Notes under the pieces: model-generated | Seen by the model: only the letters and a program-made list of their open reading frames with translations | What the model was told of the DNA's origin: nothing | Database searches by the model: none | IMG/VR virus record: IMGVR_UViG_3300042372_000172 | Location: 1-21,471 of that record | DNA length: 21,471 bases | DNA from: a virus | Strand: one strand, 5' to 3' | Translations under genes and position numbers: made by a program | In this document: positions 1,991 to 21,471 of the stretch, in pieces | How positions within the stretch are numbered: the first letter of the stretch is position 1 | Layout: each line of letters begins with the position of its first letter

Positions 1991-2914
1991 ATGAGCGAAG
2001 CTGACAATGTTGGGCAACCAGACCGTAGAGAGCTACTATCTCAGCAGTTTGACGATGCACAACCACAAATAGACGCTACACCTGCTGTAAGTGTGCAATC
2101 AGAACCAGTTCCCGAACCTGCTGTTTGGGAGCGTCCCCCTGCATCGTGGAAGAAGGATTATCACGAAGTTTGGCAAACCGCTGACCCAAGATTGAAAGAA
2201 TACGCTTGGCAACGTGAAGAAGAAATGAAGAAAGGTGTAGAACCTTTACTTACCAAAGCACAGTTTGCTGACCAAATCCAACAAGCTATTGAACCGTACC
2301 AAAATAACATTAAGTCGCTTGGGATTGAACCAACGCAAGCTATTCAAGCGTTAATGAACGCTGATAATGTCTTGCGTCATGGTTCACCGCAACAGAAAGC
2401 GCAGATGTTTGCTACACTTTCTCAGCAATATGGTGTAAATTTAGGGGAAATCAACAATCTGCAACAACAGCCTGTTGACCCTACTGTGTCAATGCTTCAA
2501 AACGAACTATATAACGTCCGTAATGAAGTAATGTCATGGAAACAGCAGCAAGAAGCGGCACAAAACCAAGCTCTTTTGGGCGAAATTAGTGCTTTTTCTG
2601 AGAAAGCTGAGTTTTTTGAAGATGCAAGACCAACAATGATCCAGCTCCTAAATTCGGGAATGGCTCAAAACTTGGACGAAGCGTATAACAAAGCATTACG
2701 CCTAGATGAAGCTCTGTCTAGCAAGCTACAGCAAAGCACACAAGCTCAAGCTGAAGCAGCAAAACGAGAATCAGCTAACAAAGCAGCGAAAGCTGCTCGG
2801 GCGGCAGCGGTCAGCGTAAAAAGCTCTACACCCGGAGTGAACACGGCAGCCAAAGCGCAAGACAGACGTTCATTATTAGCCGAAGCATTTGACGGACTAA
2901 ATGAACGCTTTTGA
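1991..2914 (+). CDS. Capsid scaffolding-type protein, 307 aa
   Basis: The ATG has a good GAGGGAG site 6 nt upstream. The sequence is highly charged and Gln/Ala-rich with little hydrophobic core. After a disordered N-terminus (to about residue 45) comes WERPPASWKKDYHEVWQTADPRLKEYAWQREEEM, written in two parts here: WERPPASWKKDYHEVW, then a helix-rich stretch. The middle (about 75-140) and end (about 195-300) look coiled-coil, and the tail is Ala/Lys-rich. WxxPPxSWKxD followed by coiled coil immediately upstream of a major capsid gene is the usual appearance of podophage scaffolding proteins. These fill the procapsid and leave before DNA packaging. No protease motif is seen. Confidence 0.8.
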   Translation: MSEADNVGQPDRRELLSQQFDDAQPQIDATPAVSVQSEPVPEPAVWERPPASWKKDYHEVWQTADPRLKEYAWQREEEMKKGVEPLLTKAQFADQIQQAIEPYQNNIKSLGIEPTQAIQALMNADNVLRHGSPQQKAQMFATLSQQYGVNLGEINNLQQQPVDPTVSMLQNELYNVRNEVMSWKQQQEAAQNQALLGEISAFSEKAEFFEDARPTMIQLLNSGMAQNLDEAYNKALRLDEALSSKLQQSTQAQAEAAKRESANKAAKAARAAAVSVKSSTPGVNTAAKAQDRRSLLAEAFDGLNERF

Positions 2915-2934
2915 CAACCTAATCGGAGATTACT

Positions 2935-3936
2935 ATGGCATTTGCCAATAGCTCGATCAGCGACATCATTGCGACTAACATTCAAAGCCGTAGTGGTGAG
3001 CTTGCTGACAACGTGACAAATAACAACGCACTTTTGCGCCGCCTCAAAGAACGTGGCAACGTAAAGACGTTTTCTGGTGGTAACGTAATTTTGCAAGAAA
3101 TTATGTATACCGATGCAGCTACCGACAACACTAACTCCTATTCGGGTTACGAAGTGTTGAACGTGTCGCAGAACAGCCCAATTTCGGCTGCTCAATTCTC
3201 TATCACTCAGTACGCTGCTGCTGTGTCGATTTCTGGTTTGGAAATGATCCAGAACAGCGGCAAAGAAGCAATCATTGACTTGCTTGATGGTCGTATGCAA
3301 GTGGCAGAAGCTCAGTTGGCTAACCGTATTTCTCAAGACATCTACGGTGACGGTACTGGCAACAGCGGTAAGAACATCACAGGTTTGGCTGCGGCTGTTC
3401 CTGATGCTCCAAACACAGGCACATACGGCGGCATCAATCGTGCTACTTGGGCGTTCTGGCGTTCGGTGTCATTCTCAGGCGTAACTAACGGTGCTGCTGC
3501 TGTTTCTGCTTCCAACATCCAGAAGTACATGGATTCGGTTGCTGTTCAGTTGATTCGTGGAACAGACAAGCCTGATTTAATCGTTTGCGACAACAACTAC
3601 TACAGTCTGTATCTTCAGTCGTTGCAAGCTATTCAGCGCATTACCGATGGTGGCAACTCCAGCGCAGGTTCTGGCTTTGCATCACTTAAGTATTACGGTG
3701 CTGGTATGGCTTCTGATGTGGTTCTTGACGGTGGTATCGGTAACGATGCAACTGCAAACCATATGTTCTTCTTGAACACCAAGTACATGATGTTCCGTCC
3801 TCACGTTGATCGTAACTTTGTGCCGATTGGTGGAGAGCGTCAAGCTGTCAACCAAGACGCTATCGTTAAATTGATCGGATGGGCCGGCAACCTTACGTCC
3901 TCTGGCCCTCAGTTCAACGGCGTTTTGATCGCTTAA
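2935..3936 (+). CDS. Major capsid protein (HK97-like fold)
   Basis: 333 residues, starting MAFANSSISDIIATNIQ, with GGAG 8 nt upstream. An N-terminal helical region (about 1-45) is followed by GGNVILQEIMY, a YSGYEVLNVSQNSPI strand region and the long central helix containing LLDGRMQVAEAQLANRI. The terminal part has NTKYMMFRPHVDRNFVP and a short hydrophobic tail (FNGVLIA). Length, order of elements and position right after the scaffold gene agree with major capsid proteins of short-tailed phages that lack the long HK97 delta domain. It forms the icosahedral shell. Codon use in this gene looks richer in C-ending codons than in its neighbours, as expected for the most highly expressed gene. Confidence 0.9.
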   Translation: MAFANSSISDIIATNIQSRSGELADNVTNNNALLRRLKERGNVKTFSGGNVILQEIMYTDAATDNTNSYSGYEVLNVSQNSPISAAQFSITQYAAAVSISGLEMIQNSGKEAIIDLLDGRMQVAEAQLANRISQDIYGDGTGNSGKNITGLAAAVPDAPNTGTYGGINRATWAFWRSVSFSGVTNGAAAVSASNIQKYMDSVAVQLIRGTDKPDLIVCDNNYYSLYLQSLQAIQRITDGGNSSAGSGFASLKYYGAGMASDVVLDGGIGNDATANHMFFLNTKYMMFRPHVDRNFVPIGGERQAVNQDAIVKLIGWAGNLTSSGPQFNGVLIA

Positions 3937-18666: not shown

Positions 18667-18758
18667 AACTACCTCATCACGGCAGCATCACAAAAAAACA
18701 ATGGCAGGACGGTGATGATTCGTCTTTTCCCCCGCTAAAGGTAGCCGTTGCTTAAAAA

Positions 18759-20697: not shown

Positions 20698-20732
20698 GTT
20701 TTTTCCTTTGTAGGCGTGATTGCCTAATACGA

Positions 20733-20761
20733 ATATTAAGACAACTAAATATGCATGTCAA
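20733..20761 (-). promoter_or_regulatory. Minus-strand early promoter (near consensus) with embedded dyad
   Basis: Read on the minus strand: TTGACA (20761-20756), a 17-bp spacer, and TAATAT (20738-20733). The -35 is perfect consensus. It fires the recombination/replication operon starting at 20697. The dyad TTAAG-ACAA-CTAAA (20736-20749) overlaps the -10 and spacer, so a bound repressor would block it. Confidence 0.85.
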
Positions 20762-20776
20762 GTTAAGTATGTTAAG
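20736..20776. promoter_or_regulatory. Operator-like TTAAG half-sites in the divergent control region
   Basis: A dyad TTAAG-N4-CTAAA lies at 20736-20749. Direct repeats TTAAG at 20763-20767 and 20772-20776 follow, also with a 9-bp step. The same dyad sits in the second minus-strand promoter (18043-18056). The Cro-like gene starts at 20785. Operator function is inferred. Confidence 0.65.
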
Positions 20777-20785
20777 ATGTCTACA
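20770..20785 (+). promoter_or_regulatory. Candidate extended -10 promoter for the Cro-like gene, possibly giving a leaderless mRNA
   Basis: TGT-TAAGAT (20770-20778) is a plausible extended -10, and +1 would fall about at the A of the ATG (20785). The -35 position (TATGCA, 20750-20755) is poor. No ribosome binding site precedes this start codon. Leaderless cI mRNA from lambda PRM is the known precedent. The promoter overlaps both TTAAG direct repeats. Confidence 0.5.
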
Positions 20786-21006
20786 TGAATGATAACGAAA
20801 TTATCCAAACATTAGGTGGCACAACAAAGGTTGCTAAGTTGTGTGGTGTAACTTTGGCTGCTGTTTCCCAATGGCGCAACAACGGTATTCCGCAAGACAA
20901 GATGATATTTCTTGCAGCCAGCTTAGAGAAAGCGTCTGACGGTAAATACACAAGAAAACAAATGTTTCCCTCGACATGGCAAGATATATGGGTAGAATTA
21001 AAGTAG
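20785..21006 (+). CDS. Cro/YdaS-type helix-turn-helix regulator, 73 aa
   Basis: It runs opposite to the minus-strand early operon, 87 nt away, the classic position of a phage Cro or YdaS gene. Residues 13-32 form the HTH: TTKVAKLCGVTLAAVSQW, with the GVTxxAVSQW recognition helix. The protein begins NDNEIIQTLGG and continues NNGIPQDKMIFLAASLEKA, ending TWQDIWVELK. Size and pattern fit Cro-type repressors (P22 Cro, YdaS). It has no dimerisation extension typical of CI. It likely binds the TTAAG dyads around it and in the 18043-18056 promoter, switching the early units. Its start has no ribosome binding site. A terminator follows at 21012. Confidence 0.8.
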   Translation: MNDNEIIQTLGGTTKVAKLCGVTLAAVSQWRNNGIPQDKMIFLAASLEKASDGKYTRKQMFPSTWQDIWVELK

Positions 21007-21011
21007 TGAGC

Positions 21012-21037
21012 ATCAGGTGTTAGCGTCCTGATTTTTA
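21012..21037 (+). terminator. Intrinsic terminator after the Cro-like gene
   Basis: ATCAGG (21012-21017) pairs with CCTGAT (21027-21032) around a nine-base loop and is followed by TTTTTA. The stem is short, so it is probably leaky. It lies 5 nt after the Cro-like stop. Confidence 0.6.
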
Positions 21038-21115
21038 GGCAAGCGTCTAGCAGACCAAAGTTCCTTGGCAGGCACTTGCACTCTTAGACGTAGTGTTTAA
21101 TTTTCTAGTGAAAAT
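21038..21115 (+). other. Structured non-coding stretch between the Cro-like terminator and the leader promoter
   Basis: CGTCTA (21044-21049) pairs with TAGACG (21085-21090), enclosing a CCAA/TTGG hairpin (21055-21058 / 21065-21068). Next, ATTTTC (21100-21105) pairs with GAAAAT (21110-21115) around TAGT. No coding frame is convincing, and no tRNA features (T-loop GTTC pattern, acceptor stem) are present. Function unknown. Confidence 0.5.
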
Positions 21116-21135
21116 CCTGCTTTATGGAGGCTCAC

Positions 21136-21164
21136 TTTACTTTTTTTTAGAAGTTGTTTATAGT
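21136..21164 (+). promoter_or_regulatory. Sigma70-like promoter upstream of the structured leader
   Basis: TTTACT (21136-21141), a 17-bp spacer rich in T, and TATAGT (21159-21164). The -10 differs from consensus at one base; the -35 matches four of six. Transcription would start near 21171, exactly where the first hairpin of the leader begins. Confidence 0.6.
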
Positions 21165-21170
21165 TTGTGC

Positions 21171-21290
21171 ATCCCTTGGTCGGGGTGATTAACGAGGTAA
21201 AGCGTCACATGAAAACTCAGTAGGTTATCTCACCTACCCGACCAGACCCCTTAAAAAAGGGTTGAGTTTTCAGGTGACGCTTTTTTTTTA
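21171..21290 (+). ncRNA. Structured leader or small RNA upstream of the DUF1376 gene (candidate attenuator)
   Basis: About 120 nt with five pairings. The 5' hairpin is ATCCC (21171-21175) with GGGGT (21182-21186). TGGTCGGG (21177-21184) is also complementary to CCCGACCA (21237-21244). A GTAGGT/ACCTAC hairpin lies at 21220-21225 / 21232-21237 and CCCTT/AAGGG at 21248-21252 / 21257-21261. All inner elements sit in the loop of a 20-bp stem that ends as a terminator. The 5' arm of that stem contains a tiny ORF, ATG AAA ACT CAG TAG (21209-21223), with GAGG at 21194-21197. A terminator close to the start codon implies attenuation or a free-standing small RNA. Confidence 0.65.
21199..21289 (+). terminator. 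Long-stem intrinsic terminator closing the leader
   Basis: AAAGCGTCAC-A-TGAAAACTCA (21199-21219) pairs with TGAGTTTTCA-G-GTGACGCTTT (21263-21283), 20 bp with one A-G mismatch. Nine T residues (21281-21289) follow. The next gene's start codon is at 21301, and no new promoter is seen between. Confidence 0.85.
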
Positions 21291-21300
21291 AAGGCTTAAG

Positions 21301-21471
21301 ATGCACTACTATCAATTCAATATCGGTGACTACGCTAGTCACACAAGATATTTGACACCCATGCAAGACTTGATTTACAGGCGCTTACTTGACCTGTATT
21401 ACTTACATGAAAAACCCATTCCAGAAGACAATCCATCTCAATATATTGGATTGAACGACTGTTCAACGGAC
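21301..21471 (+). CDS. DUF1376 (YdaU-like) phage replication protein, N-terminal part, 3' truncated by window
   Basis: ATG 21301 has AAGG 7 nt upstream. The visible 57 residues begin MHYYQFNIGDYASHTRYLT and continue PMQDLIYRRLLDLYYLHEKPI, the conserved opening of DUF1376/YdaU proteins. These act in phage DNA replication, often together with a DnaC-type loader encoded next. The frame remains open to the edge of the window. Its expression must pass the terminator just upstream. Confidence 0.85.
   Translation, partial: MHYYQFNIGDYASHTRYLTPMQDLIYRRLLDLYYLHEKPIPEDNPSQYIGLNDCSTD

Follow-up and report, generated by a model that had tools for sequence, protein, structure and literature searches.

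In mode of working, the closest described systems are IsrK, an RNA of the Salmonella prophage Gifsy-1, and, through IsrK, the CI RNA of phage P4 and the C4 RNA. In Gifsy-1 one promoter gives rise both to the short IsrK RNA and to a read-through mRNA; the short form acts in trans, and downstream translation of the read-through mRNA depends on alternative folds (PMC4825925). The CI RNA of P4 and the C4 RNA of P1 and P7 are phage RNAs that control replication or antirepressor genes by pairing, and P4 CI acts via premature termination 5' of the replication genes (PMC4825925, PMC12197685).

It is important to compare these systems with the RNA found in the window, which is a linear virus record of 21,471 bp. 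The layout of the window RNA fits that of IsrK: a phage early region, a single putative promoter, and a predicted short RNA whose 3' end would lie at an intrinsic terminator, with read-through mRNA beyond it. However, IsrK is built on nested long-range alternative helices, while the window RNA has two pseudoknots inside its terminator, and the trans action demonstrated for IsrK is conjectured for the window RNA. The CI and C4 RNAs are described as pairing with outside complements, whereas the pseudoknot partners of the window RNA are both internal. No match to isrK or C4 was found among the Rfam models up to E 10 in window positions 20700-21471; together with the different fold, this means that the window RNA is not a member of the IsrK, CI or C4 groups as far as tested.

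Pseudoknots of other kinds also offer a comparison. In the rep leaders of the I-complex plasmids, the replication initiator is controlled by a pseudoknot between a loop and a strand, and the loop sequence of the antisense RNA sets compatibility. The I-complex plasmids differ in that a separate antisense RNA controls translation there, and we know of no terminator-linked pseudoknot described in them. The loop L1 in the form TTGGCG may resemble the IncI loop. In terminator riboswitches with pseudoknotted aptamers, such as those for fluoride and ZTP, a pseudoknot forms before the intrinsic terminator and competes with it, the terminator arm taking the pseudoknot strand by displacement. In the window RNA, by contrast, the whole 5' arm lies within the loop of the second pseudoknot (PK2), so that competition would be by strain, and the downstream genes are unrelated.

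The features of the locus are as follows.

18685-18751, minus strand: int-alpA RNA (RF02996), 37.8 bits, the only match of that model in the window.
20785-21006, plus strand: upstream Cro/YdaS-like repressor gene, 73 aa (PF15943, E 2.5e-10; PF14549, E 7.3e-10).
21136-21164, plus strand: promoter-like sequence, -35 TTTACT (21136-21141), 17-nt spacer, -10 TATAGT (21159-21164).
21170-21187, plus strand: P1 hairpin, CATCCC, loop TTGGTC, GGGGTG (stem 21170-21175/21182-21187), from the fold, with a covarying stem.
21176-21181, plus strand: L1, TTGGTC, the 5' strand of PK1 (partner 21240-21245).
21194-21199, plus strand: strand a, GAGGTA, the 5' strand of PK2, with no linker to the terminator 5' arm.
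21200-21219, plus strand: 5' arm of the terminator stem P2 (lower 9 nt 21200-21208, mismatch A21209, upper 10 nt 21210-21219), from fold and covariation.
21220-21237, plus strand: P3 hairpin, GTAGGT, loop TATCTC, ACCTAC; 98.6% of cells paired.
21226-21231, plus strand: L3, the P3 loop and 3' strand of PK2 (partner 21194-21199).
21240-21245, plus strand: c', GACCAG, the 3' strand of PK1 (partner 21176-21181).
21246-21262, plus strand: P4, small hairpin ACCC ... GGGT; 4 pairs, all covarying, 99.7% paired.
21263-21282, plus strand: 3' arm of P2 (upper 21263-21272, mismatch G21273, lower 21274-21282), from fold and covariation.
21281-21289, plus strand: T9 tract, intrinsic terminator read from the sequence; expected 3' end of the short RNA.
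21279-21295, plus strand: candidate helix P5, the base of the P2 3' arm with the first T (GCTTT) against the RBS region (AAAGGC), the T tract forming the loop; suggested by the relatives in aggregate.
21301-21471, plus strand: start of the downstream DUF1376 gene, truncated at the record end, with its ATG 11 nt past T9.

The promoter-like site, the 20-bp terminator stem, the nine T residues and the 11-nt gap to the DUF1376 start, as described in the original prediction, are all present. The terminator stem consists of 9 bp (21200-21208/21274-21282), an A/G mismatch and 10 bp (21210-21219/21263-21272), and the first two T of T9 also pair in it. The minimum free energy of the window fold is -49.4 kcal/mol (z = -5.4), and none of 200 shuffled sequences was equally stable. 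The downstream gene was assigned to DUF1376 through a full-length relative, L074, which matches PF07120 with E 1.8e-23. Taken alone, the promoter match in the window is weak (9/12; 5 sites of this quality occur in the region, where 2.7 are expected). Support comes from the relatives, in which a -10-like hexamer occurs at a near-equal distance 5' of the RNA: of 69 relatives, 35 have a best -35/-10 pair with a score of 9/12 or more, where about 5 would be expected from shuffles, and this pair lies mostly 6-11 nt 5' of the P1 stem. Transcription would be expected to start near 21170. Directly 3' of the Cro-like gene, on the plus strand at 21010-21040, there is a small hairpin followed by TTTTT (ATCAGG...CCTGATTTTT), which looks like a terminator between that gene and the leader's own putative promoter.

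The int-alpA RNA (RF02996) resembles the window RNA in its place, since it is found directly 5' of DUF1376 genes in many related phages (L026). It differs in size, sequence and fold and in being without a terminator, and its model does not match the window RNA. The copy in the window ends 18 nt 5' of an HNH gene (18666-18184, minus strand). By a simple motif, an int-alpA-type RNA is found directly 5' of DUF1376 at 29 of 80 loci, and in such RNAs one loop can pair with a variable strand near the RBS.

To collect relatives of the window RNA, the N-terminal part of the DUF1376 protein was used as a query against viral contigs. This gave 80 loci, some of which share the layout despite very different letters. 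A covariance model, R1, was built from seven relatives with the window excluded, because MAFFT misaligned the long stem of window-like members; R1 finds the window as an outsider with 54.3 bits (E ~1e-11). Further copies came from protein-led scans and from a scan by RNA pattern alone. At least 142 copies were located, of which at least 120 are distinct in sequence, and nearly all are on phage contigs. The pattern scan fixed the PK1 letters TTGGCGG and CCGCCAACA, so that both the diversity of PK1 and the total of copies are underestimated. Weak matches of the model on the minus strand proved to be shadows of the palindromic stem and not copies. Each of 15 viral records of 34-60 kb holds one copy.

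The original prediction had recognised no known riboswitch, in agreement with Rfam 15, which gives no match for this RNA either at the gathering threshold or, in window positions 20700-21471, at E up to 10, and likewise none for the relatives. By DNA similarity only three relatives, all derived from metagenomes, were found among phage records and none among plasmids, and the literature on int-alpA and on DUF1376 leaders offered nothing useful for this RNA. We regard the RNA as a new family absent from Rfam 15, probably a leader with a competing terminator, that is set apart by the Rfam comparison and by its fold. With it, early regulation in freshwater phages gains a well-supported RNA family.

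The RNA occurs in many freshwater phages, where it directly precedes the leading gene of early operons, with hosts among the Burkholderiaceae and Betaproteobacteria. On genome contigs the pattern gave 84 matches, of which only two are real, about 58 being expected by chance according to our estimate. One real match is in Polynucleobacter sp. UK-Kesae-W10 (L413). Replication-like genes follow it, and the opposite strand carries a repressor-like gene, which makes this locus look like a prophage. The other is in a betaproteobacterial metagenome-assembled genome (L384). Among sequenced bacteria the RNA is rare: it is present in 1 of the 186 genomes from the L413 genus and in 3 of 398 sampled from its family.

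The original prediction had named a lack of compensatory changes in the paired arms of related phages as a refutation, and the RNA passed this test strongly. The seven initial sequences have 99.6% of cells paired and 18 covarying pairs. A set of 72 representatives with less than 93% identity was used for the tests. In these, 97.1% of 3,020 pair cells are standard pairs, compared with 77.2% in shuffles and 35-48% in slid controls, and for 37 of 42 pairs one sequence or more has changes at both positions. Relatives do not count as independent observations, and the argument rests on the slid and mismatched controls and not on shuffles alone. All 18 modelled pairs of the terminator stem P2 covary (98.1% of cells paired), and for P1 two-sided changes occur in three of the four counted pairs, with 100% paired.

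The pseudoknot PK1 joins the six-nt loop of P1 with the linker between the inner hairpins P3 and P4. All six pairs are present in 72 of 72 representatives; 98.8% of cells are paired, and two-sided changes occur in three pairs, with covarying variants such as TTGACG/CGTCAA, TTGGAA/TTCCAA and TTGCAG/CTGCAA. This corresponds to the pairing of TGGTCGGG with CCCGACCA that had been put forward as a pseudoknot or an exclusive alternative state. The pairing is real and covaries, but it is not necessarily an exclusive state. Its core is TTGGTC (21176-21181) with GACCAG (21240-21245); the 5' strand of this core is the P1 loop, so the P1 stem (21170-21175/21182-21187) can stay formed, and PK1 is a pseudoknot that need not exclude it.

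The second pseudoknot, PK2 (21194-21199 with 21226-21231), was absent from the first reading. It joins the strand just 5' of the terminator arm with the P3 loop, and all 72 representatives have 5 bp or more of it. Matched strands form 6.2 bp on average, compared with 3.9 bp for strands taken from different members, and in an alignment-free test none of 301 permutations attained the observed score. On the model alignment pairing in the PK2 columns reaches 81%; this value is lower because loop lengths differ, and the alignment-free test is the better one. Two members with longer loops (L006 and L269) were missed by the automatic 5-bp parse and were parsed correctly in the test of 72 representatives. 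The distance from strand a to the terminator arm is -2 to +1 nt in 72 of 72. PK2 varies far faster than the rest of the RNA while remaining paired. Where the downstream proteins are at least 95% identical over the compared stretch, 35% of the sites in strand a and 34% of those in a' differ, compared with 3-13% in the other helices. This comparison was conditioned on the downstream protein, since conditioning on identical P2 biases P2 divergence low. The five-letter PK2 strand occurs in 34 versions among 120 RNAs, and the P3 strand in 11.

A T tract of 5-9 T follows the stem in 71 of 72 relatives, and in all 69 relatives measured it lies 8-14 nt from the start codon. This gap leaves little room for another promoter, so that the gene most likely depends on read-through. 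The genes themselves are diverse. Among the 112 RNA-pattern matches listed there are 16 DUF1376-like starts, 5 cases off the contig end and 91 other genes, most of the latter at the same short spacing. DUF1376, Lin1244_N, AntA antirepressor, HNH and T5orf172 are found by Pfam among the downstream genes, with GIY-YIG under the Pfam cut-off; the common replication-like proteins with KNWxKFQHFKDR have no Pfam match. The upstream genes vary, many of them coding short repressor-like proteins. A role specific to DUF1376 is not supported, given the many unrelated genes that the RNA also precedes. The constant 8-14 nt before unrelated genes shows a modular leader cassette, usually one per phage, which is reused before unrelated early genes. 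The structure, covariation, position and modularity of this leader are established by the present data.

Homing-endonuclease-like first genes (HNH, GIY-YIG, T5orf172) are frequent after the RNA: L009, L243, L254, L268, L280 and L295, and further L317, L318, L332, L384, L430 and L431. Insertion of these genes may favour the conserved RNA sequence, or their products may preferentially target it.

These features allow us to propose, with moderate confidence, that the region from about 21170 to 21289 is a 5' leader RNA acting as a transcription attenuator, in which PK2-dependent read-through competes with the terminator. Transcription would begin at P1, and P1, P3, PK1 and PK2 could form before the 3' arm of the terminator is transcribed. 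PK2 would then link strand a, which lies 5' of the terminator stem, to the P3 loop, which lies at the stem's other end. As strand a has no linker to the foot of a stem of 19-20 bp, it could reach the far loop only if the lower stem half were open; by this geometry of zero linker length, PK2 and the base of P2 should exclude each other, and PK2 is thus probably a built-in antiterminator. It is PK2, not PK1, that is most likely to be the pairing apt to compete with the terminator. While PK2 is held, the lower stem half beside the T tract would be kept open and the polymerase would continue into the gene. If PK2 fails to form or is opened, closure of the 20-bp stem would terminate transcription about 11 nt 5' of the start codon, and the product would be a short RNA some 115 nt in length. 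We infer both the read-through and the direction of this control. Mean nearest-neighbour estimates are -28.5 kcal/mol for P2, -10.6 for PK1 and -6.2 for PK2; on paper P2 is stronger than either pseudoknot, so read-through would need kinetics or a helper. With its terminator arm held in a pseudoknot loop, this topology offers a transcription switch of simple design. The attenuator interpretation of the original prediction is thereby retained as to the leader RNA, the promoter-like site, the conditional-looking terminator and the competing pairings, and is given up as to attenuation on a tiny ORF and PK1 as the exclusive alternative.

A second, translational layer of control is plausible, in view of an excess of P5 pairing and of two copies lacking the T tract. 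The P5 value in relatives is 11.0, compared with 8.4 +/- 0.25 for shuffled spacers and 9.0 +/- 0.3 for spacers from other groups, and the excess persists with one member per arm type. P5 is not universal: no more than 42 of the 64 distinct cases have a helix of at least 5 bp. The stem base could also pair with the RBS region in many members, and closure of the stem after read-through may free the start site. The two copies L430 (1501-1602) and L431 (1602-1501), from genomes of the Burkholderiaceae family, have no T tract, keep the pairing strands and carry a perfect GGTCT-TTCCG-AGACC hairpin over the presumed RBS. Intrinsic termination is therefore impossible for at least those copies, which suggests that they may be a translational version of the switch.

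A possible though unlikely addition to the attenuator is that the terminated RNA acts in trans on RNAs of its own kind, in immunity or copy number, like the CI RNA of P4, the C4 RNA of P1 and IsrK of Gifsy-1; the trans step and the attenuator do not exclude each other. With the stem closed, as it would be in the terminated RNA, strand a and L3 would be free to pair with L3 or strand a of a nascent leader, blocking its PK2 and enforcing termination, and the PK2 sequence would set the specificity. The divergence of the PK2 strands (35% and 34%) and the 34 distinct five-nt versions among 120 RNAs are consistent with this, as are the prophage-like character of L413, the precedent of IsrK, whose short form acts in trans on the read-through mRNA (PMC4825925), and antisense-controlled plasmids, in which loop changes decide compatibility (PMC10724649). 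However, a cis pairing free to drift would also explain all the PK2 variation, and among the genomes and large viral records searched for a compatibility comparison none was found with two different copies. The divergence pattern looks like that of a specificity determinant, though neutral drift of a structural pairing may also produce it. That the hypervariable PK2 is in fact a specificity code, by which a terminated leader shuts off early operons of the same code through a block of the antiterminator, giving superinfection immunity or copy control by RNA only, seems to us rather unlikely. If it were so, paired substitutions in the two short strands could re-code the immunity or copy control. 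Because PK2 drifts fast and yet stays paired, RNA-based phage immunity could be tested directly by swaps of a few nucleotides.

The conservation of P3 and PK1 in sequence, although they are paired, suggests recognition beyond pairing. This could point to an aptamer-type switch in which a protein or small molecule binds the core of P1, PK1 and P3 (TTGG loop, GCTGGT, CCAGTCCGCCAACA) and stabilises the pseudoknotted state. We consider such a switch improbable: the downstream genes (replication proteins, antirepressor, homing endonucleases and small ORFs) have no common metabolic theme, and fixing TTGGCGG and CCGCCAACA in the pattern searches inflates the apparent conservation of PK1.

It is very improbable that the RNA is a stand-alone small RNA directed at host or phage transcripts, with the next gene merely nearby and read by leakage. 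The promoter-like site of its own, the compact fold and the strong terminator would suit such an RNA, but it would have no reason to keep the gap of 8-14 nt from T tract to start codon (69/69) before unrelated genes, and the segment that varies fastest has its pairing partner inside the RNA, which is not how a conserved seed behaves. Scarcely credible is the ribosome-coupled attenuation of the original prediction, in which a ribosome on the tiny ORF at 21209-21223 would cover the terminator arm, since the ORF (ATGAAAACTCAGTAG) is present in the window but is not conserved among relatives, L004, L007 and L008 having no ATG there, no conserved leader peptide being found, and any ATG-to-stop mini-ORF anywhere in the RNA occurring in only 27 of 120 relatives.

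Other RNA elements were observed in these phages. The phage of L283 carries both the present RNA and a match to RF02932 (Betaproteobacteria-1 RNA, 100.8 bits, L283 10563-10680), which is a separate element. A third pseudoknot-like element (CGCCGTGGAAAGCG ... TTTCCA) lies before DUF1376 in L019 and L020 (about 2670-2810 and 2859-3000), L052 and L075. In L013 and L106-L110 the last 150 nt 5' of DUF1376 contain a terminator hairpin, the apical loop of which is paired with a strand upstream of it. This loop-strand pairing covaries (GGACTAG/CTAGTCC, GGACAAG/CTTGTCC), and the hairpin is followed by T8-T9 and a short gap to the ATG.
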